DNA of 64,000 nt, taken from Liopterus haemorrhoidalis (taxonomy: Eukaryota > Arthropoda > Insecta > Coleoptera > Dytiscidae). A program made the translations under genes and the position numbers. The stretch is taken from assembly GCA_963971575.1 (NCBI GenBank), contig OZ020611.1:227966260-228030259 (forward strand). The letters are read 5' to 3'. The first letter of the stretch is position 1, and every line of letters begins with the position of its first letter. A model generated the notes under the pieces. The model saw only the letters and a program-made list of their open reading frames with translations. It had not been told where the DNA came from and did no database searches. Positions 13,301 through 61,918 of this stretch are shown in pieces.

Positions 13301-16300
13301 ATGTTAAATAATATAAAATTAACATTAAGATTACTATATTAGTATTGTAATAAAATCCAATATTTCATTTTAGAAATGTAAAAATAGTAAGGTCTGTTCC
13401 TTTGGTTTAAGCGGAACTAGATTTTCAATTCTAGTTACTTTTACCGATTGATTGAAGCGTTTGATCATTTTGTTCAGGAAAAGTCAACTTCAATATATAA
13501 AAAAATATCTAATGACAAATTACAAAAATGAAAATTGCGGTTAGTTCCGCCTAGAGATGGGTCGTTCATGAACGAACCGGCTCACTGAGCCGGCTCAGTA
13601 CACTGACCGAAGTGACACGGTTCACCAAATTGAAATGAGCCGGCTCACGGCTCACTGTATAGTTTCAAGTTTCAAGGATACGATTGGTCGGGCGATTGTG
13701 AACAGTGACCGGAGTGATCCGGATCTGGATCGATGTCATGTTGAACTTCGCGAGAACTTGGCTTGTAATGTATTATCATAAAGTGTATTTTGTCATCAAT
13801 TTGTAGGGCAGTTTATTTGAAACTAATAGGGTTAGTCTGTATTTTCTTACAACCATACTATATAAAAATATTAAAAATATTGCCCAAATCCCAGATGTCC
13901 GATTTATAAGGGCAATAAACATCGCCATAAACTTAACACATCTGGTTTAAAATACAGTAGCTACATAAAGTGAATTGCTTGTTTCAAAAATGTTAGATAA
14001 GAGTCGGGGCTAAGCGACGTTCTACCTACGACCGGACGACCGGCAACTGACTGACCTGTGTCTCGGGATCATGTTTAAAGAACCGGCTCTAAGCAAGAGT
14101 CGGCTCTAAGCGACGTTCTACCTCTAAGCTCTAAGCGACGTTCTACCGAACGACCGACCGACCTGTGTCTAGGGATCATGTTTACAAGAACCGGCTCTGA
14201 GCAAGAGTCGGTTCTAAGCGACGTTCTACCTACGACCGAACGACCGACCGACCTGCGTCTCGGGATCATGTTTACAGTTCATATATTGCAAGAATCGGCT
14301 CTAAGCAAGAGCCGGCTGTAAACAAGGTTCTACCTACGACCGAACAACCGACCGACCTGTGTCTCGGGATCATATTTACAGTTTATATATTGCAAGAACC
14401 GGCTCTAAGCGACTTTCTACCTACGAACTAACGACCGTCCTGTGTTTCGGAGACATGTTTACTTAACCGGATCACTGAGCCGGATCAATGAACCGGCTCA
14501 ACAAACTGAACGACCTCTACTGATCCGGTTCCGCAAACTGAGCCGAAATTCCCATCTCTAGTTCCGCCTAATCGTTTGGAATAGACCGTAGGCACAAATT
14601 AGGATTATTATATTGGGTATAATAATATTAATGTGAAATTAATTACTATTAAAAAGGAATATTTCTATTTCAAAATCTAATAAATGCTTTTTGTGTATTA
14701 TGTGTTACTTTTTTCGTATTTTATCCTTACATTATTAAATAAAACCTACATAATATAAATAAATAGATTTTTTTAATATTAATAAAATATTGATGTTTCC
14801 GATACATCGATGTTTTTCCTTCGATGGTTTTTCAACAACGATAGTAAGCGCCGATGTTAACATCGATGTTAAACATCGATGTTTTGCCTTCGATGTACAA
14901 TCCTAGTTTGTACTGTCCCAGGACGCTCGTAGTATAGGTACCCATTACCTAGTACTTACTTCTATAGGTTCAAAAGAAACTCCAACACAGAAATTCGCCA
15001 GCCAGTTTAGAGCTACGGCAATAGATGTGGCAATGGGTCTAGCGTTGATTTCAAACATTTCACTGACAAGAAACCAGGGAATCGCTGCTCCAATAGCGAA
15101 AAGCACGATGTACAAATAGATGCATACTGTACATATCCAAGCTAAGAAATGAGCTTTATCCTAAAAATAATCAAATAATATTACACAGGTACATAGACCA
15201 TTTTAATGTGACGTCACATCTGTCAAACGAGCTGTAGCGACACACACTTACTGCATAAATAATTGGCACTATTCTACTTTAGCAAACCCACTAGACAATG
15301 TTGCCAACTATAGTAAAATTAAAACAAGTAAATTTAAACTAATATCAAAATAGAATTAAAATTATTTGTATAATAATGCTTAACTTTCAGTTAAATAAAT
15401 CTTATTAAATTAATATTCCGGTATTTTATAATAAGAATAAATAATAATATTACATTCACAGCCGATTAAAGATTAAAAAAGGGGGAACATAATTTAGTGC
15501 ACCTAAAAACTGAGTGATTAGGTTAGGTTTAGTTAGTAAAAGTCTACGACAGCAGAAGCCGAAAAGCTCAAAGTAAGCTTAAAAAAGTTTGTGTAAAAAA
15601 CGTTTGTGCAGTGTAGGATGTAATTCAGTAGTTATACCTTTATCTTGTTGTTGTTATATTTTGTAAAGTGTATACATTCTTTATATATATATATATCTAT
15701 ATATATAAAAGGCAGTGTCCTGACTGACTGACTCACTCATCACCGCCCAGCCCAAACCCCTGGGCCTAGAAACTTGAAATTCGGAGAGTACATTCCCTTC
15801 ATGATGTAAGCACCCAATAAGAAGGGATTTTTCGAAATTCCACTCCTAAGGGATGAAAAGGGGTGAAATGTGATTTCACGAATTACTTAATATCTCTTAG
15901 GGCCGATGGGATATCGACTTAGTTTTTGCTTACAAGTATTACCCATACAAATGCCGAAAAACCAATTTCGGGATATTGCCCTAATCAACCCCTAAAGGGG
16001 TGAACCTACAATCGGGGTGGATTATACATCCCGTTGTATTTCCTGTGTTCGTTTAGTTGCAAGATTACTTTTTGGCACATAGGTGTCTTTTTAAAATATC
16101 TCGAAATGGTATTGACAGTTTTTTGAAATTTCACCCCTAAAGGGTGAAAAGGGGTGAATTGTGATTTTAAGGATTCTTTAATATCTCTTAGGACCAATAA
16201 GATATCGACTTGCTTTTTGCTTACAAAAATTACCTATACAAATACCGAATCACCAATTTCAGGATTTTGTCCTAATCAACCCCTAAAGGGGTGGATCTAC

Positions 16301-19300
16301 AATCAGGGTGAATTATACATCCCGTCGTAATTCCTGTTTTCGTTTCGTTGCAACATTACTTTTTGGCACATATGTGTCTTTTTAAAATATCTCGAAATCG
16401 GTTTGACAGTTTTTTAAAATTCCATCCCTAAGGGTTGAAAAGGGGTGAATTGTGATTTCAAGGATGCCTTAATATCTCTTAGGATCAATAAGATATCGAT
16501 TTACTGTTTGCTTGCAAAAATTATCCATACAATTACCGAAAAAATTATTTCATGAATTTGTTCTAATCATCCCCTAAAGGGGTGGATGTACAATCGGGGT
16601 GAGTTATACATTCCGTCATATTTCCTGTGTTCGTTTAGTTGCAAGATTACTTTTTGGCACATAGGTGTCTTTTTAAAATATCTCGAAATGGTATTGACAG
16701 TTTTTTGAAATTTCACCCCTAAAGGGTGAAACGGGGTGAATTGTGATTTTAAGGATTCTTTAATATCTCTTAGGACCAATAAGATATCGACTTGCTTTTT
16801 GCTTACAAATATTACCCATACAAATACCGAATCAACAATTTCAGGATTTTGTTCTAATCAACCCCTAAAGAAGTGGATCTACAATCGTGGAGAATTATAT
16901 ATCCCGCCGTAATTCCTGTGTTCGTTTAGTTGCAACATTACTTTTTGGCACATAGGTGTCTTTTTAAAATATCTCGAAATGGGTTTGACAGTTTTTTAAA
17001 ATTCCATCCCTAAGGGTTGAAAAGGGGTGAATTGTGATTTCAAGGATTCCTTAATATCTTTTAGGATCAATAAGATATCGACTTACTGTTTGCTTGCAAA
17101 GATTATCCATACAATTACCGAAAAACTTATTTCAGCAGTTTGTCCTAATCAACCCCTAAAGGGGTGGATCTACAATCGGGGTGAGTTATACATTCCGTCG
17201 TATTTCCTGTGTTCGTTTAGTTGCAACATTACTTTTTAGCCCATAGGAGTATTTTTAGAATATCTCGGAAAGGTATTGGTAGTTTTTTTAAATTTCACCC
17301 CTATAGGGTGAAAAGGGGTGAATTATGATTTCAAGTATTCCTTAATATCTTTTAGAACAAATAAGATATCGACTTGCTTTTTGCTTACAAAGATTACCCA
17401 TACAAATACCGAAAAACGTATTTCAGGGTTTTGTCGTAATCAACCCCTAAAGGGGTGGATCTACAATCGGGGTGAATTATACATCCCGTCGTATTTCCTG
17501 TGTTCATTAGTTGTAGCATTACTTTTTGGCACATAGGTGTCTTTTTAAAATATCTCGAAATGAGTTTGGTAGTTTTTTAAAATTTCACCCCTAAGGGTGA
17601 AAAGGGGTGAATTGTGATTTCAAGGATTCCTTAATATCTCTTAGGACCAATAAGATATGGACTTGCTTTTTGCTTACAAAGATTACCCATGCAAATACCG
17701 AAAAACATGTTTCAGGTTTTTGTCCTAATCAACCCCTAAAGGGGTGGATCTACAATCGGGGTGAATTATACATCCCGTCGTAATTCCTGTGTTCGTTTAG
17801 TTGCAACATTACTTTTCGGCACATAAGAGTCTTTTTAAAATATCTCAAAATGGATATTGATAGTTTTTTGAAATTTCACCCCTAAAGGGTGAAAAGGGTT
17901 AAATTGTGATTTTAAGGATTCTTTAATATCTCTTAGGATCAATAAGATATCGACTTGCTTCTTGCTTACAAAGATTACCCATACAAATACCGAATCATCA
18001 ATTTCAGGATTTTGTCCTAATGAACCCCTAAAGGGGTCGATCTACAATCGGGGTGAATTATACATCCCGTCGTAATTCCTGTGTTCCTTTAGTTGCAACA
18101 TTACTTTTTGGCACATAAGTGTCTTTTTAAAATATCTCGAAATAGGTTTGACAGTTTTTTAAAATTCCACCCCTAAGGGTTGAAAAGGGGTGAATTGTGA
18201 TGTCAAGGATTCCTTAATATCTCTTAGGATCAATAAGATATCGACTTACTGTTTGCTTGCAAAGATTATCCATACAATTACCGAAAAACTTATTTCAGGA
18301 ATTTGTCCTAATCAACCCCTAAAGGGGTGGATCTACAATCGGGGTGAATTAAACATCCCGTCGTAATTCCTGTGTTCCTTTAGTTGCAACATTACTTTTT
18401 GGCACATAAGAGTCTTTGTAAAATATCTCAAAATGGTATTGACAGTTTTTTTAAATTTCACCCCTAAAGGGTGAAAAGGGTTAAATTGTGATTTTAAGGA
18501 TTCTTTAATATCTCTTAGGATCAATAAGATATCGACTTGCTTCTTGCTTACAAAGATTACCCATACAAATACCGAATCATCAATTTCAGGATTTTGTCCT
18601 AATCAACCCCTAAAGGGGTGGATCTACAATCGGGGTGAATTATACATCCCGTCGTAATTCCTGTGTTCCTTTAGTTGCAACATTACTTTTTGGCACATAA
18701 GTGTCTTTTTAAAATATCTCGAAATGGGTTTGACCGTTTTTTAAAATTCCACCCCTAAGGGTTGAAAAGGGGTGAATTGTGATTTCAAGGATTCCTTAAT
18801 ATCTCTTAGGATCAATAAGATATCGACTTACTGTTTGCTTGCAAAGATTATCCATACAATTACCGAAAAACTTATTTCAGGAATTTGTCCTAATCAACCC
18901 CTAAAGGGGTGGATCTACAATCGGGGTGAGTTATACATTCCGTCGTATTTCCTGTGTTCGTTTAGTTGCAACATTACTTTTTAGCACATAGGAGTCTTTT
19001 TAAAATATCTCGAAAAGGTTTTGGTAGTTTTTTAAAATTTCACCCCTATAGGGTGAAAAGGGGTGAATTATGATTTCAAGTATTCCTTAATATCTCTTAG
19101 AACCAATAAGATATCGACTTGCTTTTTGCTTACAAAGATTACCCATGCAAATACCGAAAAACATATTTCAGGTTTTTGTCCCAATCAACCCCTAAAGGGG
19201 TGGATCTACAATCGGGGTGAGTTATACATTCCATCGTATTTCCTGTGTTCGTTTAGTTGCAACATTACGTTTTACGCACATAGGTGTCTTTTTAAAATAT

Positions 19301-22300
19301 CTCGAAAAGGTTTTGGTAGTTTTTTAAAATTTCACCCCTAACGGGTGAAAAGGGGTGAATTGTGATTTCAAGGATTCCTTAAATCTCTTAGGGCCAATAA
19401 GATATTGACTCGCTTTTTGCTTACAAAGATTACCCATACAAATACCGAAAAATATATTTCAGGATTTTGTCCTAATCAACCCCTAAAGGATGGATCTACA
19501 ATCGGGGTGAATTATACATCCCGTCGTATTTCCTCTGTTCGTTTAGTTGCAACATTAATTTTTGGCACATAGGTATCTTTTTAAAATATCTCGAAATAGT
19601 TTTGACAGTTTTTTAAAATTACTCCCTAAAGGGTGAAAAGAGGTGAATTGTGATTTCAAGGATTCCTTAATATATCTTAGGACCAATAAGATATCGACTT
19701 GCTTTTTGCTTACGAAGATTACCCATACAAATACCGAAAAACTTATTTCAGAATTTAATCCTAATCAACCCCTAAACGGATGAACCTACACCCATTGTAT
19801 TTCCTGTGTTCGTTTAGTTGCAACATTAATTTTTGGCACATAGGTGTCCTTTTAAAATATCTCGAAATGGTATTGACAGTTTTTTTAAATTTCACCCCTA
19901 AAGGGTGAAAAGGGGTGAATTGTAATATCAAGGTTCCTTAATATCTCTTAGGACCAATAAGATAACGACTTGCTTTTTGCTTACAAAGATTACCAATACA
20001 AATACGGAAAAATATATTACAGGATTTTGTCCTAATCAACCCCTAAAGGGTGAATCTACAATTGGGGTGAATTATACATCCCGTCGTATTCCCTGTGTTT
20101 GTTGAGTTATAAGGTTTCTTTTTGGCACATAGGCGTATTTTTAAAATATCTCGAAATGGTTTTGACAATTTTTTTAAATTTAACCCCTAAAGGGTGAAAA
20201 GGGGTAAAATGTGATTTCAAGGATTGTTAAACATTTTTAAGGACCAATAAGATATTGACTTGGTTTTTGCTTACAAAAACTACCCATGCAAATACCGAAA
20301 AACTAAATTTTTGATTTTGTCCTAATCAACCCCTTAAGGGGTGGATCTACAATCGGGATGAATTATACATCCCGTCGTATTTCCTGTGTTCGTTTAGTTG
20401 CAACATTACTTTTTGGCACATAGGTATTTTTTTTTAAATATCTCGAAATGATTTTGCTATTTTTTTTAATTTCACCCCTTAAGGTTGAAAAGGGGTGAAA
20501 TGTGATTTCAATAATACCTTAATTCTTTTAGGACCAATAAGATATCGACTTGGTGTTTGCTTATAAAAATTATCCATACAAATGCCGAAAAACTTATTTC
20601 AGGATTTCGTCATAATCAACCCTTAAAGGGGTGATTCTACAAACGGGGTAGATTATAAATCGCGTCGTATTTCCTGTGTTTGTGGAGTTATAACGTTTCT
20701 TTTTGGCACATAGGTGTCTTTTTAAAATATCTCGAAATGGTTTTAACAGTTTTTTACCTTTAACAAATATCACCCCTAAAGGGTGAAAAGAGGGAATTGT
20801 GATTTCAAGGACTCCTTAATATCTTCTAGGATCAATAAGATATAGACTTGGTTTTTGCTTATAAAGATTACCCATAGAAATGCCGAAAAATGTATTTCAG
20901 GATTTTATCTTAATCAACCCCTAAAGGGGTGAATCTACATTCGGGGTGAATTATAGAACCCTTTGTATATCCAGCGGTTGTTGAGTTATAACATTCCATT
21001 TTGGCATATATGTGTTTTGACAGTTTTCTTTCACTCCTAAAGGGTAAATTAGTATTTTTTTGTTAGAAATAAAAAATTACGGGAGTACATTTTTAAAATA
21101 AAAATATATAAAAATAAAATTAAAATAAAAAATTATAGGAGAGTACATTTTTCAGTATGACGTAAGAACCCACTAAGAAAGGATTTTTTCAAGTTCGACC
21201 CCTATCTGGTGAAAAGAGTAAACTGTTTTTTCACGGATACCTCAATATCTCTTAGGACAGATGAGATATCGACTAGATTTTTTTTTACAAAGGTTACCCA
21301 TACACAAGTTTAAAAACAAACTGCGGATTTTATGCCAATGAGACCATCAATATACCGTAGCGAAGCACGGGTTTTCAGCTAGTATATATATATATTTCAC
21401 ACGAACTCCTTTAAGTTTACTTTGTGTTTTTCGGCTTCTGTTGTCCTAGATTTTTACTAACTAAACCTAACCTAATTACCTTGTTTTTAGGTGCACAGTA
21501 CTTAATTTTCCCCCCATATTAGCCTAATTAAAATTGTGTATCATTGTGCATACATTTATAAAATGGTGGTTCAGAGGGCCAGTTCATTGTCCACCTGAAT
21601 TAAAATTATTTTAAATATCGATTCAATGCATAATAAATAACTACAACTGAAAAAAGTGAAAATAAATAATATTAAATTAAATTTAAACTACATTTATATA
21701 TTAAAACTCTAATCACAGTAGAAATTAAGGGAATATTACTTATTTCTATATTTCTTATAAATAAACTCATTTAATAAATTGATATTAAATTTAAATTATT
21801 TAAATTGATATATTACATTTTACTATTGCCAACACTGCACGCATACGCAGTAAGGTGGGTTTGCTAAAGTAGAATAGTACCAAATAATTAAAATAGTATA
21901 TTAAAACACGAGTTTCATAAGGCATGATTTTGCGGCACGCGTGTCGATTAGTCACGAGTTTTCTAATAGACAAGTGTGGCAAAACGCCTTATGAAACGAG
22001 TTTTTTATATTATTTTTTCTACTTTGCCATTTATTCTTAAATTTGATAAATTTTTATTAATAAAATCGGTTCACTTTTGTAAGAACACACTAGATCTGGT
22101 TATTTTGGTTACTTTTATGTTGTGTTACTGACTTTAAATGTCAATTAAAAATATTCCTTACGCTGTAAAACCGACTTTAGGTTGATAAGGTTATGATCAT
22201 TATAATTAAGATATCATTTTCATTATGACATATGTCAAATGGATCGACATTTTAAAAAAGTGACATTTTTTAATACCAACATGACATACAGCTTCAAAGG

Positions 22301-29300: not shown

Positions 29301-32300
29301 GTGTATTCGTTGAATTCAGAATAAAATTTCTTTCCGAACAAAAATATAAAAAATATATCTTCTCATTAAAAATAAGAAAGTTGGGTTCCATATTTGGAGA
29401 ACCACTGACCATAAAAATTTTTTGTGTATAGTTTTGTAATAGACTTGCAAAATGGTATTTCTTTGCTAGTTTAACCAACCTCGTAGCTCTTATAGTTCTC
29501 GAGATAGCAATGGTGGCACACTTAGATTGAACACTGTATATATATATTTTGTATTTTCATTTTTATGTTCCTAAATTGTATTTTGTTTTCGTTTTTGACA
29601 ATACAATTTTTAATTAAATTTCATTTGTATTTTCAATTTTATAATTTGGTAAATAAAATTAAACCAAAATTTATACCGGTAGATATTTGATGTTAGACTT
29701 GATTTTACCTTGTTATTCGAACCGAAACCGAACCGGAACTGAACCGAAATTTTTACGAACCAAAACCGAAACTAGAACGAAAAACATTTACTTTGAACGT
29801 AACCGTAAACCAGAACGAAATAAATTTTGGTTCGACTCTCTGATTTAAATCGATTTGCAAAAACTTATATAAATATTTCAAACTTACGGCTCCTCTTAAA
29901 TTGTCTGGAGATATTTCTACTAAGTACATAATACAAACTCCAGCATTTATTCCGGAATTAACACCCATGAAAAATCGACCAGCCAATAGGGGCGCCACAT
30001 GGTTAACTGCAATTTTACACACCCCTTCCAAGACAGCTCCAACTAATACAAATATATTGTTGTACACCAAACCATTTCGTCTTCCAAGTCTAAAGAAATA
30101 ATAATAATAGGTAAAATGTTTATCTACAAGGTGTCTCAAAAGAAATTTTATATTTATTTAGCTTACTGCGTGAACGCAACGTATCCGACGGGCGCAGGGG
30201 TTATGTCAATCGGTAGCCTGGCTCTTGGGAATTTAGTCGCTATGGAGCGCTTCTCGGGAGCAGACCGCGCGTTATGCGTGCGAGAGTTTTACAAAAACGG
30301 TGATTCGGCGACTGTAGCGCGTAGAAAATTCTGCAGTATTCGAGGTTTTCGCCACTTAAATGATGCGCCAAGCATTCCTCTCATTCGACATTGGGTTAAA
30401 AAGTTTGAAGAGACTGGTACAACGCTGGATAAATCAAAATCCGGGCGACCTAGGTCATCAAGAACGGTAGAAAACGTGGAGAATGTTAATCAGTCTGTTC
30501 GTGACGACCCGAACCTTTCAATTCGGAAGCGCGCATGTGCTTTAAATGTGCATAGATCATCATTACATCGCATTATGCACAAAGACCTAAAGCTGCACCC
30601 CTACAAAATTCAATTGGTGCAAGAATTAAAGCCCCAAGATGCCAGTCAGAGGCTTAATTTCGTAAATCAGGTGATTGAGCGATTTTCAACGTTTACCAAC
30701 ATTTTGTTTTCGGATGAAGCTCATTTTCATCTTAATGGCCACGTAAATAAGGAGAACTGCCGGCTACTGGAGTGCAACGAATCCGAAACGCAAACATCAG
30801 AAACCCCTACATTCGCCTAAAGTGACCATGTATGGGCTGCGATGTCGGCGCGAGGAATTATCGGCCCTTACTTTTTTGAAGACGAAAGGGGGCGTGCAGT
30901 TACAGTGAATTCAGAGCGTTATGTGGAGATGTTAGACAACTTCTTGGTACCTGAACTGCAAAACTTTCCTGGCTATAACCAAAGAACATGGTTCCAACAG
31001 GACGGAGCAACTTCACACACGTCCAATATGTCTCTGCCACGTGTTCGTGAAATTTTCTCAGGCAAATTGATCTCCCGGAGAGGTGACATAAATTGGCCTC
31101 CACGCAGTCCAGATTTAACCCCTATGGACTTTTTCCTATGGGGTTATCTTAAATCTAAAGTTTACGCCAATAAACCGACTTCACTGGCGCATTTGAAAGA
31201 AAATATCCGTCACGAAATAGCAGCCATCTCTGAGTCCACCTGCCGAGACGTCATAAGTAATTTTACTGTTCGATTAAATGAGTGCCGAGAACGCGAGGGT
31301 CTACATTTAGACGATATTATTTTTAAGAAATAAATCCCCAAAAAGTGTATTTTGGTAATTAATAAACATTTTTTCTATATACGGCTTACTTTTTTTTTAA
31401 TCGATCCACTAAATATAAAATTTCTTTTGAGACACCTTGTATATCAGAGTTTTCCAAACGTCTACTGGTGCTCCGTGAGCAGATTAGACATAAAAGTAAA
31501 TAAAATAAATGGGATCAGATGTGAAAATAGTGTTTTTTATTTTTCAAAACACAGAAATGATACGCTACTGAAGATAACAAAAGCTAGTACAGACGATTCC
31601 GCTTAATTGGGTCACCGCTTAATTGGGGCAGCCGCTTATTTGGGCCAAATCTCAAAGAACAGAAACCAAACCAAGGAACAAACAGTATATTTACATGTTT
31701 AATTGGGACAACATTCCGCTTAATTGGGACAGTAAATTTAAGATCACAGTACATATTATGTTACACATATTCTCAAGAAAAAATATGTACAAACAATTTA
31801 ATATTACAGCGTTATTTTATGCAGAAAGGAAATGAAGGGAGCTCTACATCCGCACTGAATACCTGTACTGCTTTTGTAGAAGTGAAATGTTACAAAAACA
31901 ATAGACAGAGTACACTTGACGCATTTTTGCATTGAATTAAATTGTATATACCTATTTATTATTTTATTTTGGAATTTATTATTATTTTTTCTTAAAAGTT
32001 TATATTTTTTGGTTGTATGTAATTTATAGTTTTGTCCAAGAGTTTATAAAATAAAATTATTGAAAGAAAAATATGCATAGTTTAATTTTATGTGAAATTC
32101 GCTTAATTGGGGCAGCCGCTTAATTGGGCCAAAATGTCTAAGTCCCGATGTGTTCCAATTAAGCGGAATCGACTGTACTAAATATTTTCTACCCCCAATA
32201 AATGTAAATAAAGACGCTCGAATCTCAATAGTTCAACTGGTCATTGAAAAGTTTTAACCTTTATAAAATACAAATATACAACTGAGTGACTGTTCTATTA

Positions 32301-35300: not shown

Positions 35301-38300
35301 ATTAAACGTAATACAATAAAAATTTATGTGAAGTGTGAATTTTCACACATTTCAGGGTTTCGCAGGTATTTAGTAAGTGAATAATGATTATTTGGAATGC
35401 CAAAACAAATTTTAAGTTAAAATATTTTTCTTTTTTGTTAATTTTAATTCGAATGCCTAATACCATGATGTAAGTTTCTAAATATGTGCAGTATTTTTTT
35501 TTTTTATAGCAAGGTTTAATAAAATTTTGAAATAATTCCTCTTAGATAGATATATAATCTAAAAATATTAAGTGAAGGCGGAATGCTGAGTGTGTAGGAC
35601 ATATTTTGCTTTGTAGTATTCACTGTAAAATGAACAATATTTTAAAAATAATTTATCATCTCTTAATCTAAGAGCTTTAAAAACAAATTTTATGTTAAAA
35701 TATTTTTATGTTAATTTTAATTCGAGTGCCTAATACCATTATTTAGGTTTCTTAATATGTGCAGTATTTTTTTTTATATAGCAAGGTTCATTAAGATTTT
35801 AAAAATTGCGCCTATGGCTTCATTGATTGTTTCTAGTCATAGCTCCTCCATTTGATTTCGTGTACATTCAAACAGAATTAAATTATAATTTCAACAATTT
35901 CCACTGGTTATTAAATTTACGCTTTTAAAAATTAAATGCAACATTTGCCAAAATATACCTAGAATTTTGAAAAAATAATTTAAACAAAATATAAATGCAA
36001 AAATAAAAATAAAAATAATATTGTCTCTTCTCGTGGGATTCGAACTCCTTTTCTTGGGCAGAACGCTAGTACCGTAACCATTGCACCAAGATACAAGTTA
36101 CAGTTTAGTGTGTTATATAACTATAAGTTTTCAACATTATTAGCAAAAAAACACAAAAAATGCTTTTTTTCCAAAAACATAATCTGTTTAAAAATTCCTG
36201 TTGTACTATTCCGGTTCACACCAATGTACATTACTTAGAATTTTTTCAGATTTTTAGTATCAATCATCTGGGCTACAGGGTGTGGGACAAAATTTTTTTT
36301 GCACAATTTTGGCAAAAATCGCATCAAAATAATTTATTTTGCAAAAATAAAATTTTGATCGTTAATCCACGTACTAAGGGCTTTCATTTGATACCCTACT
36401 AAGAATTTTAAAAAATTTTTTTTTTTCGATGAGCACATATTTGTTTATATTTTTATAGGGATATGTTTTTTAGATGTTTTAGTATTTTTCCTATGTGCGG
36501 GTCAAAGAGTTGTATAAGCATGCCAAATTTCAACTCTCTAGGTTTAGCCGTTTGGCTACAATTTTTACCGAACAGACAGACAGACAGACAGACAGACGAC
36601 AAAATGACGGTATAAGGGTTTTTTGGTCATACCTACAAAACCCTAAAAATTAGCTGTGGCCACCACAGGACCAACCGCCATCATAAAGTACTTATATAAA
36701 ATAGATTCTAGCAGCAGAGTAGAAATAACTTGGCCTAAAATTTTCTAACAGAGATATTATTTATCATGACCATGAAAACTTTACATATAAGTATGAAAAA
36801 ATTGAGACAAAAAACGTCTCAAATAAAATTTATTAGTTATTGCTTTTATAGCAACTTTTGTTCAATAAATTTTTTCGAAATATTTTTCTGTTATATATTC
36901 ACAAAAATCTTAAAATCGAAACGAGTAAACTCCCATTTTTAGTCAACCGATTTTTACCAAAAGTTGATCAACTCGTGCCATTGATGGCAGAAGTTTAAAT
37001 GTGAAGTTTAATAAAAATCCGTTCAGCCGAATTTGCTCTGCACGTGTACACAGACGGACAGACGGACAGACGGACAGACGGACAGACGGACAGACGGACA
37101 GACGGACAGACGGACAGACAGACAGACGGACGGACAGACAGACCATCAAAACGTTATGTAGTAACCTCAATTCGAGGATATCCATCGAAATCTCGAAATG
37201 TCAAAATCGGTATAATCACAATACCTCCCTTATATATGGTGGCGGTCGGTAAAAAGTGAATATTAGTAGATAGATTCAAGAAATGTTTGAAAGTATATGC
37301 TCTAAATGTAAATACCTATAAGAATTATTGTTCAGCTATGTTCACAGTTCAGAATAAAATTAATAGTTGACAGGACGTCACAATACGTAACAGATATTTT
37401 TTGATATTAACATTACGTTTATTGATATCAGGCCTGGGAAAAAGTTCGTGGCGTTTTTGCCGATAGACGGCGCCAATTGCAAATAACTCAGGAAACACAG
37501 ATCGCAGCGACACCACTAAGCGCTCGTTGGAAAGGTGACAGTTCGAGCGTTACTTTGAGTGTCTAAACATAAAAATTTGTGCAGTGGTTGGAAAGCTGTT
37601 TGCGTTTGAAAATGGAGAAAAGTAATGAAAAATTGTTCTATATTTTGCAATATTATTACGACAAAGGGAAGAACGCTGCGCAGGTTTGTGAAAAAATTTG
37701 TGCTCTGTTCGGTGAAGGTACTTTATCAAAATCTGCTGCGCGGAAATGGTTTGCTCGCTTTCGTTCTGGTAATTTTAATGTGAAAAATGACTCACGCTCG
37801 GGTCGTCCAATCAGTGAAAAAGTTGATGAAATTCTTGAAAAAGTCCAGCAAGATAGGCGTATCAGCAGTGTCGATATTGGTACGGAGCTAGGCATTGACC
37901 ACAAAACTGTTTTGAACCATTTACGGAAAGCTGGCTACAAAAAGAAGCTCGATATATGTGTTCCTAATGAGTTGAGTGCGAAAAACATGATAGACTGAAT
38001 TAACATCTGCGATGCGCTTCTGAAACGCAATGAAATCGAGCCATTCTGAAACGTGTCATAACCGGTGATGAAAAATGATCACATACGACAATCGGAAGCG
38101 TAAAAGTTCGTGGACAAGGGATGGTGAGGCATCACAAGCGTTCGCGAAGCGAGGATTGACACTGAACAAGGTGATGATTTGTGTGTGTGGTGGGACTGGA
38201 AGGGAATCGTCCACTATGAGCTACTTCCAGTTAGTCAGACGATTGATTCTCTACTGTGGACAACTAGAGAGATTACGCCAGGCAATTGAAAGAGAACGGT

Positions 38301-46789: not shown

Positions 46790-49195
46790 GACAGTTTTTG
46801 GTCTCCGATTTCATACAGCATGCCTTTTGGAGGAGAAAATATTTACCCTGTGACAACAAAAAAGGGATGGTACTAAACTCCTGCACGCTTTCCGGTCATA
46901 GGGAAAATTTCCACTTGCACAAAAATGTTGTTTTTCTCTGATTTAATATTGCTTGCCCTTTTGTCAAAACAAAGTTAAAACAAATTTAAAGTCTTTTAAT
47001 TATAGGCATGCGATTCGCAAGGTCCCAAAGGGCTCAAACGGTCACGTGATCTTGTAATAATAAAATATGATTTTTCGCGTTTTCATACAGCATGCCGATG
47101 AAAAGAATTAAAGTTTGTGTCATAAAACCTCTATAAAAAAATTGGCATGCAGCCATCGTTGGCCAAGGGTGGAAAATTTCGGAAAATATTTGTGAAAATT
47201 TTAATAGGATTTTACGTGATTTTTAACAACACCAAATAAAGTAAAATGTTAATTTTATAGTGTAAAATGTCCAAAATTTAAATGGCATGCATGCCGAGGA
47301 AGCCCATCACATCATAAAAAATAAGAAAAGTTGCAAAAAAAATTGGAAAATTTAGGTCATATTATTTTGCATGCCTTTTTGCATTTCACTAAATAATGTT
47401 GTTTTTAGCTCAAATACAAAATGGCATGCATTCCGAGGAAGCCCATCACATCATAAATAATAAGAAAAGTTTTTTTTATTTACTTTTCTTTTATTCTTTA
47501 ATTCTTTTCATCGGAATGCTGTATAAAAACGCGGAAAATCATATTTTTTTATTACAAGATTAATTTTATAGTGTAAAATGTCCAAAATTTAAATGGCATG
47601 CATGCCGAGGAAGCCCATCACATCATAAACAATAAGAAAAGTTGCAAAAAAAAAAAAATTGGAAAATTTAGGTCAAATTATTTTGAATGCCTTTTTGCAT
47701 TTCACTAAATAATGTTGTTTTTAGCTCAAATACAAAATGGCATGCATGCCGAGGAAGCCCATCACATCATAAATAATAAGAAAAGTTTTTTTTATTTTAC
47801 TTTTCTTTTATTCTTTAATTCTTTTCATCGGCATGCTGTATAAAAACGCGGAAAATCATATTTTTTTATTACAAGATTAATTTTATAGTGTAAAATGTCC
47901 AAAATTTAAATGGCATGCATGCCGAGGAAGCCCATCACATAATAAACAATAAGAAAAGTTGCAAAAAAAAAAAATGGAAAATTTAGGTCATATTATTTTG
48001 AATGCCTTTTTGCATTTCACTAAATAATGTTGTTTTTAGCTCAAATACAAAATGGCATGCATGCCGAGGAAGCCCATCACATCATAAATAATAAGAAAAG
48101 TTTTTTTTATTTTACTTTTCTTTTATTCTTTAATTCTTTTCATCGGCATGCTGTATAAAAACGCGGAAAATCATATTTTTTTATTACAAGATTAATTTTA
48201 TAGTGTAAAATGTCCAAAATTTAAATGGCATGCATGCCGAGGAAGCCCATCACATAATAAACAATAAGAAAAGTTGCAAAAAAAAAAATTGGAAAATTTA
48301 GGTCATATTATTTTGAATGCCTTTTTGCATTTCACTAAATAATGTTGTTTTTAGCTCAAATAAAAAATGGCATGCATGCCGAGGAAGCCCATCACATCAT
48401 AAACAATAAGAAAAGTTGCAAAAAAAAATTGGAAAATTTAGGTCATATTATTTTGCATGCCTTTTTGCATTTCACTAAATAATGTTGTTTTTAGCTCAAA
48501 TACAAAATGGCATGCATGCCGAGGAAGCCCATCACATCATAAAAAATAAGAAAAGTGGTAAAAAAAAAAAAAATTGAAAATTTAGGCCATATTATTTTGC
48601 ATGCCTTTTTGAATTTCACTAAATAATGTTGTTTTTGGCTCAAATACAAAATGGCATGCATGCCGAGGAAGCCCATCACACCAGAAATAATAAGAAAAGT
48701 TGTAAAAAAAATTGGAAAATTTAGGTCATATTATTTTGCATGCCTTTTTGCATTTAACTAAATAATGTTGGTTTTGGCTCAAATACAAAATGGCATGCAT
48801 GCCGAGGAAGCCCATCACATCATAAATAATAAGACAAGTTTTTTTTTTTTTTCTTTTCTTTTCATTCTTTAATTCTTTTCATCGGCATGCTGTATATAAA
48901 CGCGGAAAATCATATTTTTTTATTACAAGATCACGTGACCGTTTGAGCCCTTTGGGACCCTCCAAGTCGCATGCCTATAATTAAAAGACTTTTGAAAGAA
49001 ATTTGTTCTAACTTTGTTTTGACAAAAGGGCAAGCAATATTAAATCAGAGAAAATTTTTGTGCAAGTGGAAATGCAATTTTCCCTATGACCGAAAAGCGT
49101 GCAGGGATTTAATACCATCCCTTTTTTGTTGTCACAGGGTAAATATTCTCTCCCCCAAAAGGCATGCTGCATGAAATCACAGACTAAAAATGTCT
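46790..49195. mobile_element. Long inverted-repeat element G with satellite core
   Basis: The left arm (46790-47130) and right arm (48857-49195) are inverted copies: TTTCATACAGCATGCCTTTT, CAAGCAATATTAAATCAGAG, CACGTGA-CCGTTTGAGCCC and GGCATGCTGTAT all recur in complement. The core is a satellite array. No protein was found. A microsatellite (CTGT)n follows the right arm. Confidence 0.8.
47240..48857. repeat. Higher-order satellite array, 142/173-bp units
   Basis: The block AATGGCATGCATGCCGAGGA occurs 11 times, at 47281, 47420, 47592, 47736, 47909, 48051, 48224, 48366, 48506, 48650 and 48789. Spacing alternates between about 142 and 173 bp for three higher-order units, then becomes a steady 140-144 bp. 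A second block (CATCGGCATGCTGTATAAAA) occurs only in the longer unit and matches the element's inverted arms. Confidence 0.93.
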
Positions 49196-57220: not shown

Positions 57221-57979
57221 CGAGGGATGTTTCTTAAATTCTGGGAATTGTGCTATAATTAAATTACGCAGAACTTATAGGCAATGTTATTGGTGCCAGA
57301 CAAGTCTTGACATGTTTATGCAACTATCTAGTGCAATATTGTTCAGTCTGATTTAGGTGTTCGACTGATATAGACGCGTTTTCATAGCACTGTTTTTGTA
57401 ACCATGGAAGACGCAGCAAAGTCTCAAAAAGCAATAATTTTCTTTTTGTGGAAAGAAGGTGTGAAAACATCAGAAATTATTCAGCGTCTGCAAGGAGTAT
57501 TTGGTGAGTCTGCAGAATCCAAAAGTACTGTTTATCGGTGGATCGATCGTTTTAAAACCGGTAGAACATCACTAGAAGACGATCCACGCAGTGGGCGCCC
57601 AAGCACGTTGGTAAATAAAAGAAACATTACTGCCGTCGAAGACCTACTGAAAGCAGACAGGCGAATGACTATTCGTCAAATTAGTGTGTGCCTAGGGATA
57701 GGTACACGACAAGTTCATGACATCTTGCATGATTGTTTGGGCGTTAGCAAGGTTTCGCCGCGCTGGGTGTTAAGGCTGTTGGGCGTGCCATAAATAGGTG
57801 GATTGAGGAGACACTGAAAAAGTTCTTTGAGGACGGCTTAAAAAAATTATTTTATCGTTGGGATAAATGTATTCAGTTAAATGGAGATTATGTTGAAAAA
57901 CTACATTGTAATATTGACGAAAATTGACAAAATAATAAAAATTATAGCTAAATTCCCAGAACTTTGGGAACCTCCTTCG
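57221..57979 (+). mobile_element. mariner with internal deletion
   Basis: Ends CGAGGGATGTTTCTTAAATT and complement CGAAGGAGGTTCCCAAAGTT, flanked by TA. The frame from 57404 reads MEDAAKSQKAIIFFLWKEGV, helix-turn-helix motifs (STVYRWIDRFKTGR, DDPRSGRPS, MTIRQISVCLGIGTRQVHDI) and SKVSPRWV, then leaves the mariner pattern. A C-terminal piece (WIEETLKKFFEDGLKK, DKCIQLNGDYVEK) follows near 57800 in another frame. The whole catalytic domain between them is deleted. Confidence 0.88.
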
Positions 57980-59272
57980 TACAATAAATAAGTACATTTT
58001 GGTTACATGATGGTGTTTATAACAGTGAAATATTTAATGATCAGTATCAAGTTTTTCGACGTGATAGAGATATTCACACTTCAAACAAAAAGGATGGAGG
58101 TGGCAGCTTAATTGCCGTGCGTAATATTTTTCAAGTTATTGAACAGCGTGATTGGAAAACTAAATGCATTGAAGATGTGTGGGTATCTCTTACACTGCCA
58201 GGTCAAAAATCAAAGCTCCATTTATGTTGTGTTTATCTACCTGACTATACTGATCGAGATAAATTTAAAAGTTTTGTTGATAACATTGTATCAATTATGC
58301 ATAATAACGCTGAAGATAGTTTTATTATAGTTGGCGATTTTAATATGCCGAATATCAACTGGTCCTTAAAAAATCATGCAAGTTATGTAATCCCAACTTC
58401 ACCTTCTGATTATAAATCATCCTTGCTCCTAGATAGTTTCTCCATAACAAATCTTATGCAGTTCAACAGTGTTGTCAATAAAAATAACAAAATTTTGGAT
58501 TTAATATTGTGTAACGAGGAAAATATTAAAGTTGAGCCCTGCGAATGCCCGATAATCTGGGAAGATTTGCACCATAAAACGGTGAATTTTGTTTATAACC
58601 TAAAAGGCTCGATTATTTAGCCAAAAGTAAATTTCTCAAAACGAGATTTCTCTAGAACAAATTTTGATGAATTAAACGCTATAATTAAGTCACAAAACTG
58701 GAATGAAATCTTGTCGGTTGGTAGTATAGATAATATTGTTAATAATTTTTACAACCTTATTAACTTAATTATTGATGAAAATGTGCCAGTTAAAATTAAA
58801 AAAGTAAGTAAATTCCCAGTTTGGTATAAAAAAAGTACAATAAAAATTTTCAATGAAAAAAATAAACTTCATAAAAAATGGAAATTATACAAGCAACCTT
58901 CTGACTATATCTCGTTTTCTTTACTGCGCCGTAGATTAAAAAAAGCTATAAATGATGACTACCGTGATTGGATACGATCCACTGAAACTAGTTTAAAAAA
59001 CAATCCCAAAAAATTCTGGAATTATGTGTCTACTAAGAAATGCAGTTCCCGTATTCCTAATGACATGACTTTGGGTAATGAGCACGCTGATAACTATAGC
59101 GATATTTGCAACTTATTTAATGAATTCTTCCGATCAAATTTCGAACCTAGTACTGCAACTGCCACTGTAAATAATGGTCATAACTCACCTCTTTCTGTTA
59201 ATTTACAACATATTTTTAAATGTGATATTTTAGAATTATTAAAGTCTACTGATCTATCTAAAGGTCCTGGGC

Positions 59273-60448
59273 AGGGGGGTTTCACTCTAATAGCCGAAAA
59301 AATACAATATGGCGTCTTGCCCATAGTTCTTAGTACGAACACGAGCTGCACCACCATACAGCGCAACAACGAAGCTCCTCCCACGCTAGAACTTGTTGCG
59401 CCATTTTGAATTCGTTGGTTAATGTAGTCTAACCTATTAAAAATACAGAGCATTTCTTTTTGCTAAAGTTTAAAATTTAAAGAGTGTATAGTATATTATT
59501 AATACTAAAAATGGTTATGTGCTTCGTTTTGGGATGTGATAGTAGTGAACCTACAAGATATCGTTTACCAAACCCGAAGATACGGGAGGCTCCAGGCTTA
59601 TATAAAACGTGGTTAAAGAATATGGGTAATCCTAAATTGGATGGCTTGTCCATCGAAAAACTATAAGTCAAAGTTCGAGTATGTAAAAAACACTTTGCTG
59701 CAGATTGTTTTAGCAACAGGAGAACTTTGAATTTTAAGTCTGTACCAACTCTGCATCTACCAAATTAAGAACGTAAGTATTCTAACAATATTTTTTGTAA
59801 AATTACAATAGGTGTATTGTTATGGGAAAACTTAACTAACATCTTTTATATAATTAATGTTTTACATTTCAGGTTTCGACACAGCATCTGAAAATGTCAA
59901 CGTTAGTCTTAATTCACCGTTAAGTATTACAGTTGATCTTCCTGACGGTACTGGATCACCGTCGAAGATCCGGAAAATAAGCTCATCGGAAGATGATTTG
60001 GCAGTTCCATCTACTTCACATAGTGCCGAGGTAATAATAAAAAAAAAAAAATATGTAATAAATATACATGTAAGTTGTTACAAATAAATAATTATTTCTG
60101 TGAGTAATTGTTGTTTTTTTGTATAATTCCAAACTGTAACATATCTAGTTATAAGGAATTTTTAAATTACTAATTATTAGATGAAACAATTGTTATAATA
60201 CTGTATTTTGTCTGTTTTAAATTCTATTATCGTTAATAGTATTTAAAATAGTCAAAATTTTATAACGATTGTTTTATCTAATAATAGTTTGTAATTTAGA
60301 TATTCCTGAAATCCAATGAAGAATTTGAAATACCCGGATTTTCCCCCCACTCTAAATTATAGTTCTAAGTACGAACACTGCAGTTTAGCGCCGAACGTGG
60401 TTTCAAAATCTAACTAGAGAGTGAGGCATCTATTTCTATTTGATTTGT
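59273..60448 (+). mobile_element. Insertion in the LINE carrying spliced THAP-domain exons
   Basis: The 10-mer GGTCCTGGGC lies on both sides (59263-59272, 60449-60458). Removing the insert restores the LINE frame LSKGPGPDGIS. No clear inverted ends were seen, but AGTTCT-AGTACGAACAC occurs near both ends in direct orientation (59323, 60362). The cargo is a THAP-domain exon and a second exon with splice sites. P elements have THAP-bearing transposases and 8-bp duplications, so a P-like origin is possible. Confidence 0.75.
59511..60030 (+). pseudogene. THAP-domain gene fragment, two exons
   Basis: Exon 1 (59511-59772, donor GTAAGT) reads MVMCFVLGCDS, RYRLPNPKIREAPGLYKTWL, a stop (TAA, 59664-59666), VRVCKKHFAADCFSN and SVPTLHLPN. 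This is the THAP zinc pattern C-x4-C ... C-x2-H with the trailing V-P-T-L-x-x-P block, so a sequence-specific DNA-binding domain. Exon 2 (59873-60030, acceptor TTTCAG, donor GTAATA) is a serine-rich linker (SPLSITVDLPDGTGSP, SSEDDLAVPSTSHSAE). Nothing catalytic follows. The in-frame stop, and a second just before the donor, suggest decay. Confidence 0.75.
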
Positions 60449-61918
60449 GGTCCTGGGCCAGATGGAATTTCACCTCATTTTGTTAAAAATTGTTCTGAGT
60501 CATTATGTGATCCCTTATATATTATATTTAATAAATCTCTAAAAGAAGGTACTGTTCCCGATTTATGGAAACAAGCAATTGTAACACCAGTATTTAAAAA
60601 TGGGTCCAATAATAATATTGAAAACTATCGGCCTATTTCTAAACTAAGTATTTTTGCAAAAATATTTGAAAATATAATAACTAAATTTATATCTAATTCC
60701 ATTACATCAGTCATTATTCCGCAGCAACATGGATTTTGTGCAAAAAGATCAGTTATTTCAAATCTGTTACCTTACGTTGAGTACTTGCACTCAAAGATGG
60801 ACTCATCGGGCCAAGTTGACGTTATATGTACAGACTTTAAAAAAGCATTTGATAAGGTTAACCACAGTTTGCTTATCTCCAAACTAATTTCTATTGGTAT
60901 TCATGGAAACCTGTTACGCTGGATTACGTCTTACATAACAAATAGAATGCAAGCAGTGGCTATTAACAATTTTACATCAAATTTCGTGCACATAACGTCT
61001 GGTGTGCCGCAAGGCTCTCATCTTGGCCCTGTTCTATTTGTCATATTTATTAACGACATAATTTCCTGTTTTAAATATTCTAGATTCCTTCTCTATGCAG
61101 ATGATTTGAAAATTTATAAAAGCATTGAATGCCTTCAAGACTGCTATGAATTAATGTCAGATCTGCATATTTTTTATATATATTGTCAAATTAATAAGCT
61201 CTTCCTAAATTTAGAAAAATGTAATTTCATCTCATTTACGAGAAAACATATTCCAATTCTTTTTAACTATTCAATTGATGGTTCATCCCTTGTTAAATTA
61301 AATGTTGTAAAAGATCTTGGTGTTTATTTTGATAGTAAATTAAAATTCAATGTTCATGTAGATAAAATAGTAACATCCTCATTAAAAACACTCGGCTTCA
61401 TATTACGTTCTTGTAAAGAATTCACTCAACCAGTCAGTCTAATTCATTTATTTAAATCCCTCGTGTTGAGTCGTTTGGAATATGCAAGTATTGTATGGAA
61501 CCCGTATTATAATATTTACAGTGACCGACTTGAATCAGTACAAAAACGATTTACTAAATATATGGATTATAAATTTAATAAAAACAATTTAATATCTTAT
61601 GATGATCGTTTGAAAAGATACAATTTAGTAAGTCTTGTAAATCGACGCAAGCAGATTGATTTGAACAACATTTATAAAATTGTAAACAATATGATGGATT
61701 GTCCAGATATCTTGGAACTTATTAATTTTAACGTACCGTTAGTAAATACTAGGCGAAACAATACTTTTTATTATAATAGCAGAAATACTAACGCGGGTAG
61801 AAACTCACCACTGAACAGAATTATGATTCTTTTTGATAAATATTTTAATAGTAGTGATATTTTTTTCCTATCGTTTTCACGGTTTAAATCTGAAATTAGA
61901 TCCTTACTCCCTCAGTAA
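60440..61918 (+). pseudogene. Reverse transcriptase part of the LINE
   Basis: 492-residue open frame, of which the LINE portion starts at 60449. It carries the reverse transcriptase blocks VTPVFKNGS, NYRPIS, DFKKAFDKVNHSLL (first catalytic Asp), SGVPQGS and LLYADD (catalytic Asp pair), then LEKCNFISF and LVLSRLEYASIVWNP of the thumb region. No stop occurs in this half, so damage is limited to one upstream stop, the insertion and the 5' truncation. Confidence 0.88.

Follow-up and report, generated by a model that had tools for sequence, protein, structure and literature searches.

The window analysed here is a stretch of 64,000 nucleotides from the genome of Liopterus haemorrhoidalis (Coleoptera, Dytiscidae; assembly GCA_963971575.1, contig OZ020611.1, G000:C1:227966260-228030259). 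It contains a Helitron of 5,687 bp (15696-21382) lying inside U, a multi-copy palindromic transposon (15265-21881) whose terminal inverted repeats start with GG(C/T)ACTATTCTAC... Between the Helitron ends are found 17.9 tandem units of 291 bp, and no stop-to-stop frame of at least 120 aa is present within the element. We consider it very likely that this is a non-autonomous canonical Helitron, composed of its own ends and an array of about 18 units, which resides in the (TA)n of U and is probably moved by a Helraiser-like partner. At the level of sequence, comparison with other copies of the same genome demonstrated that ends and array are co-mobile, that the insertion into U was clean, that recent copies differ in unit number and that an autonomous relative with long frames exists.

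Copies of the element were searched for by comparing window 15600-16200 with its own genome (1.02 Gb, 91 contigs), 40 of 3616 first-look candidates being scored. Identity was 99-100% at the 40 main places listed, of which the window is one, and the 39 others all began between window positions 15676 and 15695, a stretch comprising the element end and the TA run that precedes it. Twenty-four other copies were fetched with their flanks (20, then four). In the available text of PMC4067079, a canonical Helitron is described as having a 5' TC, a 3' CTRR, and a 16-20 nt palindrome about 11 nt from the 3' end, and as inserting between A and T with no duplication of the target. The window element has A|TC at its 5' end and a hairpin followed by CTAG|T at its 3' end, and the TC at 15696 and the CTAG at 21379-21382 are boundaries in common with other copies. 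The hairpin, 16 nt long with one bulge, falls within the canonical range, and its letters are identical in the autonomous partner and in copies of a second non-autonomous type (type M). When the window and the neighbouring elements present in the loci were counted, A|TC was found in 23 of 27 leaders; in the four others the TC was not visible in a TA run (L013) or lay one base off (L014), an insertion interrupted the site (L017b), or the leader came immediately after a CTAG (L029b). All 26 tails counted in the same way had T as the next base after the hairpin and CTAG, a pattern which presupposes these two motifs and tests only the T. Since many copies have flanks other than TA runs, the boundary cannot be ascribed to the run present in the window. 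The end counts, together with seven empty copies of U described below, support a canonical A|T insertion with no target duplication. The canonical ends and the A|T insertion given in the initial annotation thus recurred in other copies, and the contrary outcome, other copies ending elsewhere, did not occur. A Helentron or HINE type, with a T-rich target and no TC...CTRR, does not fit ends that are TC and CTAG and a target that is A|T; Helentron-type subterminal inverted repeats were not part of the end comparison and no search was aimed at them. Exact-pattern searches for the hairpin and the leader in viral_contigs and genome_contigs gave nothing useful, and two viral contigs fitting a loose pattern had no leader or tail match by BLAST and were dropped as chance.

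U has the terminal inverted repeats, the target duplication and the many copies of a terminal-inverted-repeat transposon. Of 1194 first-look candidates obtained with its left arm, 40 were scored. Matches of 98-100% were found at the 40 best-listed places, one of them the window itself, and the same listing contained 38 matches to the inner arm in inverted orientation, no more than about 50 bp from a left arm, corresponding to U copies without a Helitron. The window U flanks, joined without the Helitron, aligned across the insertion point in seven of seven other U loci (L035-L041), nearly over the full length at 96-97% in L035, L037, L038 and L040, and with right-arm deletions or insertions in L036, L039 and L041. 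These seven empty copies prove the insertion site, and a TA run is present there in all of them. Target duplications are of 8 bp in the window copy and in six of the seven others, and of 9 bp in L040. A Helitron within a palindromic transposon flanked by duplications had been proposed from the start, and the 8-bp AAATAATT is indeed present on both sides. The insertion had also been placed at the exact centre, but this did not hold: the strong inner inverted repeat of U pairs 15474-15598 with 21395-21521, the spacer measures about 97 bp on the left and about 12 bp on the right, and the real site is the off-centre TA run of this spacer, about 42 bp from the palindrome axis.

Two exon-like pieces with similarity to a sugar transporter (Pfam Sugar_tr) lie on the minus strand of the window, at 14948-15160 (profile 349-409) and 29753-30157 (profile 66-140). 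If they belong to one gene, U and the Helitron are probably located in an intron of it, about 100 bp from the first piece.

Tandem Repeats Finder (TRF) placed the array at 15828-21015, with a period of 291, 17.9 copies, 86% matches and a score of 7462. The estimate of about 18 units made initially was therefore correct, the period of 290 bp that went with it being replaced by 291. The identities and the tree of the 18 monomers (m01-m18) revealed a six-unit block, ABABCD, which is present twice (m02-m07 and m08-m13). Among units 1-13, mean identity was 88.6% between neighbours (lag 1), 90.8% for units two apart (lag 2) and 92.3% for units six apart (lag 6). Identity to the consensus was 91-95% for m02-m13, 90% for m01 and 76-91% for m14-m18; the edge units are thus more diverged than the central ones, as first reported, mainly at the 3' edge. 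A segment spanning leader and array (15783-15971) is 75% identical to a segment of the tail (21138-21326).

The 24 copies fell into four classes. Ten resemble the window element (T18 type: L012, L016, L017, L020, L024, L026, L028, L029, L030, L044), three are other array-only forms (L011, L014, L019), six are of type M (L013, L022, L025, L027, L043, L045) and five have an autonomous-type 5' structure (L015, L018, L021, L023, L046). Eighteen units were counted in the window, L016, L030 and L044 (the last by unit painting only), 17 in L020, 16 in L012, L017, L024 and L026, 20 in L029 and 12 in L028. Eight close copies (L012, L016, L017, L020, L024, L026, L029, L030) diverge by 0.11-0.35% from the window element, and six of them differ from its array by 292, 582 or 583 bp, the steps being of 582 bp in L012, 582 bp in L017 and L024, 292 bp in L020, 583 bp in L026 and 582 bp, as a gain, in L029. 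L017 and L024, on different chromosomes, have one 582-bp deletion and four diagnostic substitutions in common; the changed array was therefore transposed afterwards, and its presence at two sites indicates that the array travels inside the element. Nine copies showed 39 private differences and five distinct unit events. Four of the five unit events in the close copies were two-unit steps, and all five fell within m02-m13. The proposal that the array moves with the element is thus borne out by copies at different sites with the same ends and varying unit numbers, one shortened form occurring twice. Counting the units of same-ended copies, the check suggested along with it, gave common ends and variable numbers, and the existence of copies bounded by these ends excludes, as it was worded, the opposing view that the units occur only as a free satellite. 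As these copies were chosen by their 5' end, free arrays not bounded by Helitron ends, such as long heterochromatic arrays of the satellite type, may exist besides.

Features of U and of the inserted Helitron in the window
Feature	Position	Strand	Remark
Left target-site duplication of U, AAATAATT	15257..15264	.	Repeated at 21882-21889
Left arm of palindromic U plus spacer, with (TA)n as its end	15265..15695	+	
Helitron 5' leader, TCTATATATATAAAAGGCAGTGTCCTGACTGACTGACTCA...	15696..15827	+	Boundary common to copies at different sites
Array of 18 units of ~291 bp (m01-m18)	15828..21018	+	TRF, monomer identities, tree
Helitron 3' tail: partial older unit copy, terminal hairpin, CTAG	21019..21382	+	
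3' hairpin, CCGTAGCGAAGCACGG	21355..21370	+	Stops 12 nt short of element end
Right arm of U	21383..21881	+	
Right target-site duplication of U, AAATAATT	21882..21889	.	

Long frames of 1642, 1619 and 1664 aa were found in L018, L021 and L023, respectively, that of L018 (L018:4540-9465) representing the autonomous Helitron frame. It is unbroken in L018 and L021, lies in L023 on the minus strand, within a second, inverted copy interrupting the first, and is broken in L015. A further copy with this 5' structure is located downstream in L017; like L046, it was assigned by 5' structure only. Two copies gave the length of the partner, L021 with 9,577 bp and L015 with 9,583 bp. The frames of L018 and L021 contain the Pfam domains OTU, Helitron_like_N and PIF1, the OTU domain being near the N-terminus, and a 5' repeat array stands ahead of the frame. 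The best PDB match of L018 is Helraiser, a bat Helitron (7lcc, E 1.8e-251), homologous over residues 306-1624 of the frame; Helraiser also follows the TC/CTAG logic. By domains and sequence, a likely autonomous partner with Rep and a PIF1-like helicase and with ends in common with the window element, the 3' tail at 87%, is thus present in the genome. In L018 the common 5' end is followed by 6.7 units of 291 bp and 2.4 units of 421 bp, so that the array is not a feature of the window copy alone, as it had appeared. The unit of about 421 bp contains the block that the window element has retained in its leader and tail, and the 291-bp unit has therefore probably been derived, by shortening, from the repeat of the element itself. 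Among the best 120 of 2789 protein matches listed, proteins of Temnothorax ants were 77-85% identical, with full coverage, to residues 560-1100 of the L018 frame, a protein of a Lasioglossum bee was 80% identical and further proteins reached up to 91%, and horizontal spread of the autonomous Helitron among arthropods is possible on these identities.

In the mechanism that we propose, the Helitron would have entered the (TA)n of the U spacer, between an A and a T, the protein being presumably supplied in trans by the OTU-Rep-helicase (Helraiser-like) Helitron of the same genome, and transposition would proceed by rolling circle, as its family suggests. The units may have arisen from the element's own 5' sequence, of which the longer version of about 421 bp would survive in the partner. 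Their number would change by homologous exchange between similar units, generating mostly two-unit steps and the ABABCD duplication; the identity peaks at lags 2 and 6, the block present twice and the two-unit size of four of the five events argue for such homology-driven exchange. Unequal exchange or rolling-circle expansion had both been offered initially to account for the diverged edges, and the exchange of blocks favours homologous exchange over rolling-circle growth in a burst of single units.

Several observations weigh against this scheme. The 3' tails of the partner and of the window element are only 87% identical over the last ~170 bp, which leaves trans-mobilisation unproven; the 1.1 kb fetched beyond L018 (L031) did not contain its 3' end. 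By folding alone the hairpin is weak (-3.8 kcal/mol), 19 of 200 shuffles folding equally well. The 24 copies are the best matches to the first 505 bp of the element, a sample which favours recent copies with this 5' end, and the unit changes are given their polarity on the assumption that an array of 18 units (window, L016, L030, L044) represents the ancestral state. L012 carries a patch of m09/m11 type, and four of its five private differences were checked and all fit; they look like a converted patch, which would give this copy a history of more than one deletion. At 1.29% divergence, L028 is more distant; three deletions affect its array, and one of these, of 870 bp in m14-m17, is outside the homogeneous core. 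Transposition itself is read from the comparison of sequences.

Unit number could change during transposition, by slippage or strand switching in rolling-circle synthesis, and not by chromosomal exchange, a possibility that we find less likely. Every length form sits in a separate insertion, the form common to L017 and L024 moved after it arose, and rolling-circle models of array growth have been published (PMC12628747, in its available part). The two-unit steps, however, correspond to the lag (2) at which nearby units are most alike, all five close-copy events lie in the homogeneous core, and the ABABCD block is duplicated. This core pattern is not decisive, since homology would aid slippage too, and the L028 deletion in m14-m17 again lies outside the core. 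Differences in unit number could also be artefacts of assembly, given that tandem arrays can collapse or expand in assemblies and that the comparison was made on the assembly; the shortened form at two sites with four linked substitutions, and breakpoints that are in register, make this very unlikely.

As regards the origin of the array, capture of an independent satellite by the Helitron, as filler DNA, is discussed as one source of Helentron arrays in the accessible part of PMC7492417, but the relationship of the units to leader and tail (75% in the segments compared above) and the ~421-bp version behind the same 5' end of the partner point to an origin within the element, and we regard capture as unlikely. 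A chance occurrence of TC and CTAG around a locally grown array, without any transposon, might be suspected from the window alone, where the 5' TC is inside a TA run and the boundary ambiguous; copies in unique flanks which start and stop at exactly these bases, and the empty U copies, refute it and leave it practically no probability.

The 5' end has a mosaic appearance. In their first ~1.1 kb, autonomous and M copies (four autonomous-type copies, L022 and L025 were compared) match the window element at 98-100%, after which identity falls to 90-97% and later to about 80-90%; in L027 identity drops earlier than in the other compared copies. Selection of the copies accounts for identity in the first 505 bp and not up to 1.1 kb, because the query covered only 505 bp. 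The three bodies (array-only, M and autonomous) are nearly identical in this first 1.1 kb and about 75-90% alike further in, which suggests that 5' ends may have been exchanged through the array. We tentatively raise the possibility that the array is a recombination platform, through which one 5' end (leader and first ~3 units, ~1.1 kb) was joined via homologous units to at least three bodies. If true, repeats inside Helitrons would drive modular exchange of ends as well as making satellites.

Another Helitron end was noticed within a few bases of at least 8 of 25 copies (L011, L013, L015, L017, L021, L023, L029, L046), as judged by leader or tail sequence, some copies being read on one side only. 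On C3, three T18-like elements stand head to tail with TAA spacers, their starts exactly 4,800 bp apart (G000:C3:57392932-57407891); the third would be longer, about 5.36 kb, if uninterrupted, and neither flank of the trio is Helitron, the right one beginning with TATATACA. The TAA spacers and this right flank fit two close insertions and unequal exchange. Two T18-like elements are joined by a TATA spacer on C1. In L029 a diverged element (L029b) lies beside the T18 copy with an array of its own (11.3 units, 94% matches) and is about 86% identical to its neighbour's leader, and the T18 copy of L017 appears to have an autonomous copy as its host, being located in the TA run at the 5' end of the latter. 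These neighbours would be explained if Helitrons had inserted into the A|T-rich ends of others and unequal exchange had come after. Read-through could account for some neighbouring Helitrons; as their sole origin it was set aside for the cases read, on the evidence of L029b, L017 and C3. A search with the unit listed other array places, and the two read at their junction (C1 and C3) both had Helitron ends. Further arrays of the 291-bp unit, in which near-identical blocks are spaced by about 2.3-2.6 kb, are found at G000:C8:19555389-19559171 and C16:21454990-21459062.

Satellite-like arrays inside rolling-circle transposons have been published for oyster, Drosophila and Caenorhabditis (PMC7492417, PMC3833285, PMC12910113, PMC4595182; these papers are compared here on the portions available). 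The Cg_HINE of Crassostrea gigas, which are non-autonomous Helentrons, likewise carry satellite-like units between rolling-circle ends and are dispersed genome-wide; they differ by subterminal inverted repeats, oligo-T targets and arrays mostly of up to 5 units of 140-180 bp (the longest of 29), and in the portion available no autonomous element could be related to them (PMC7492417). In the window family, in contrast, the ends are TC and CTAG, insertion is at A|T, arrays of the T18 type mostly number 16-20 units of 291 bp, and there is a candidate partner. Helitron-2 of Drosophila virilis also has tandem units, of 154 bp, near its 5' end (positions 237-1087 of 9,141 bp), and its repeats are also found in many incomplete copies (PMC3833285, PMC12910113). 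It has four such units in the consensus and mainly truncated copies, whereas the window family has non-autonomous copies with full ends, far more units and nearly identical copies. Some satellites of Caenorhabditis elegans are described as propagated by Helitrons, in a study limited to repeats below 200 bases, with usually one or two satellite families per element and sometimes more; its available portion contains no unit-by-unit comparison of copies (PMC4595182). In the literature searched, which includes few subscription journals and was accessible in part, no canonical A|T Helitron was found in which arrays of this length go together with a partner bearing the same array and with differences between near-identical copies resolved by unit. 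Dispersal of satellite-like DNA by rolling-circle transposons is thus already known, and the window family is a new, well-resolved example of it.

How short transposon arrays become satellites is an open question, and the window family catches this step in progress, with near-identical copies differing mainly by whole units, a shortened array that has moved again, a likely partner that bears the array, and elements standing head to tail. The rate of unit change can moreover be set against substitutions, five unit events facing the 39 private differences, at least four of which are likely to belong to a conversion patch. Long arrays in recent copies fit poorly with a model, cited in the available portion of PMC7492417, in which longer arrays lower mobility.

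A second tandem array is present in the window at 47249-48840, with periods of 315 bp and 140/284 bp and 92-97% matches. The window also contains transposase pieces at 30047-31333, 37573-37998 and 57374-57793, which are probably mariner-like; helix-turn-helix domains were found in three of the four frames scanned. Pieces of a non-LTR (long terminal repeat) retrotransposon occupy 57988-61918, with endonuclease and reverse transcriptase domains in separate frames.

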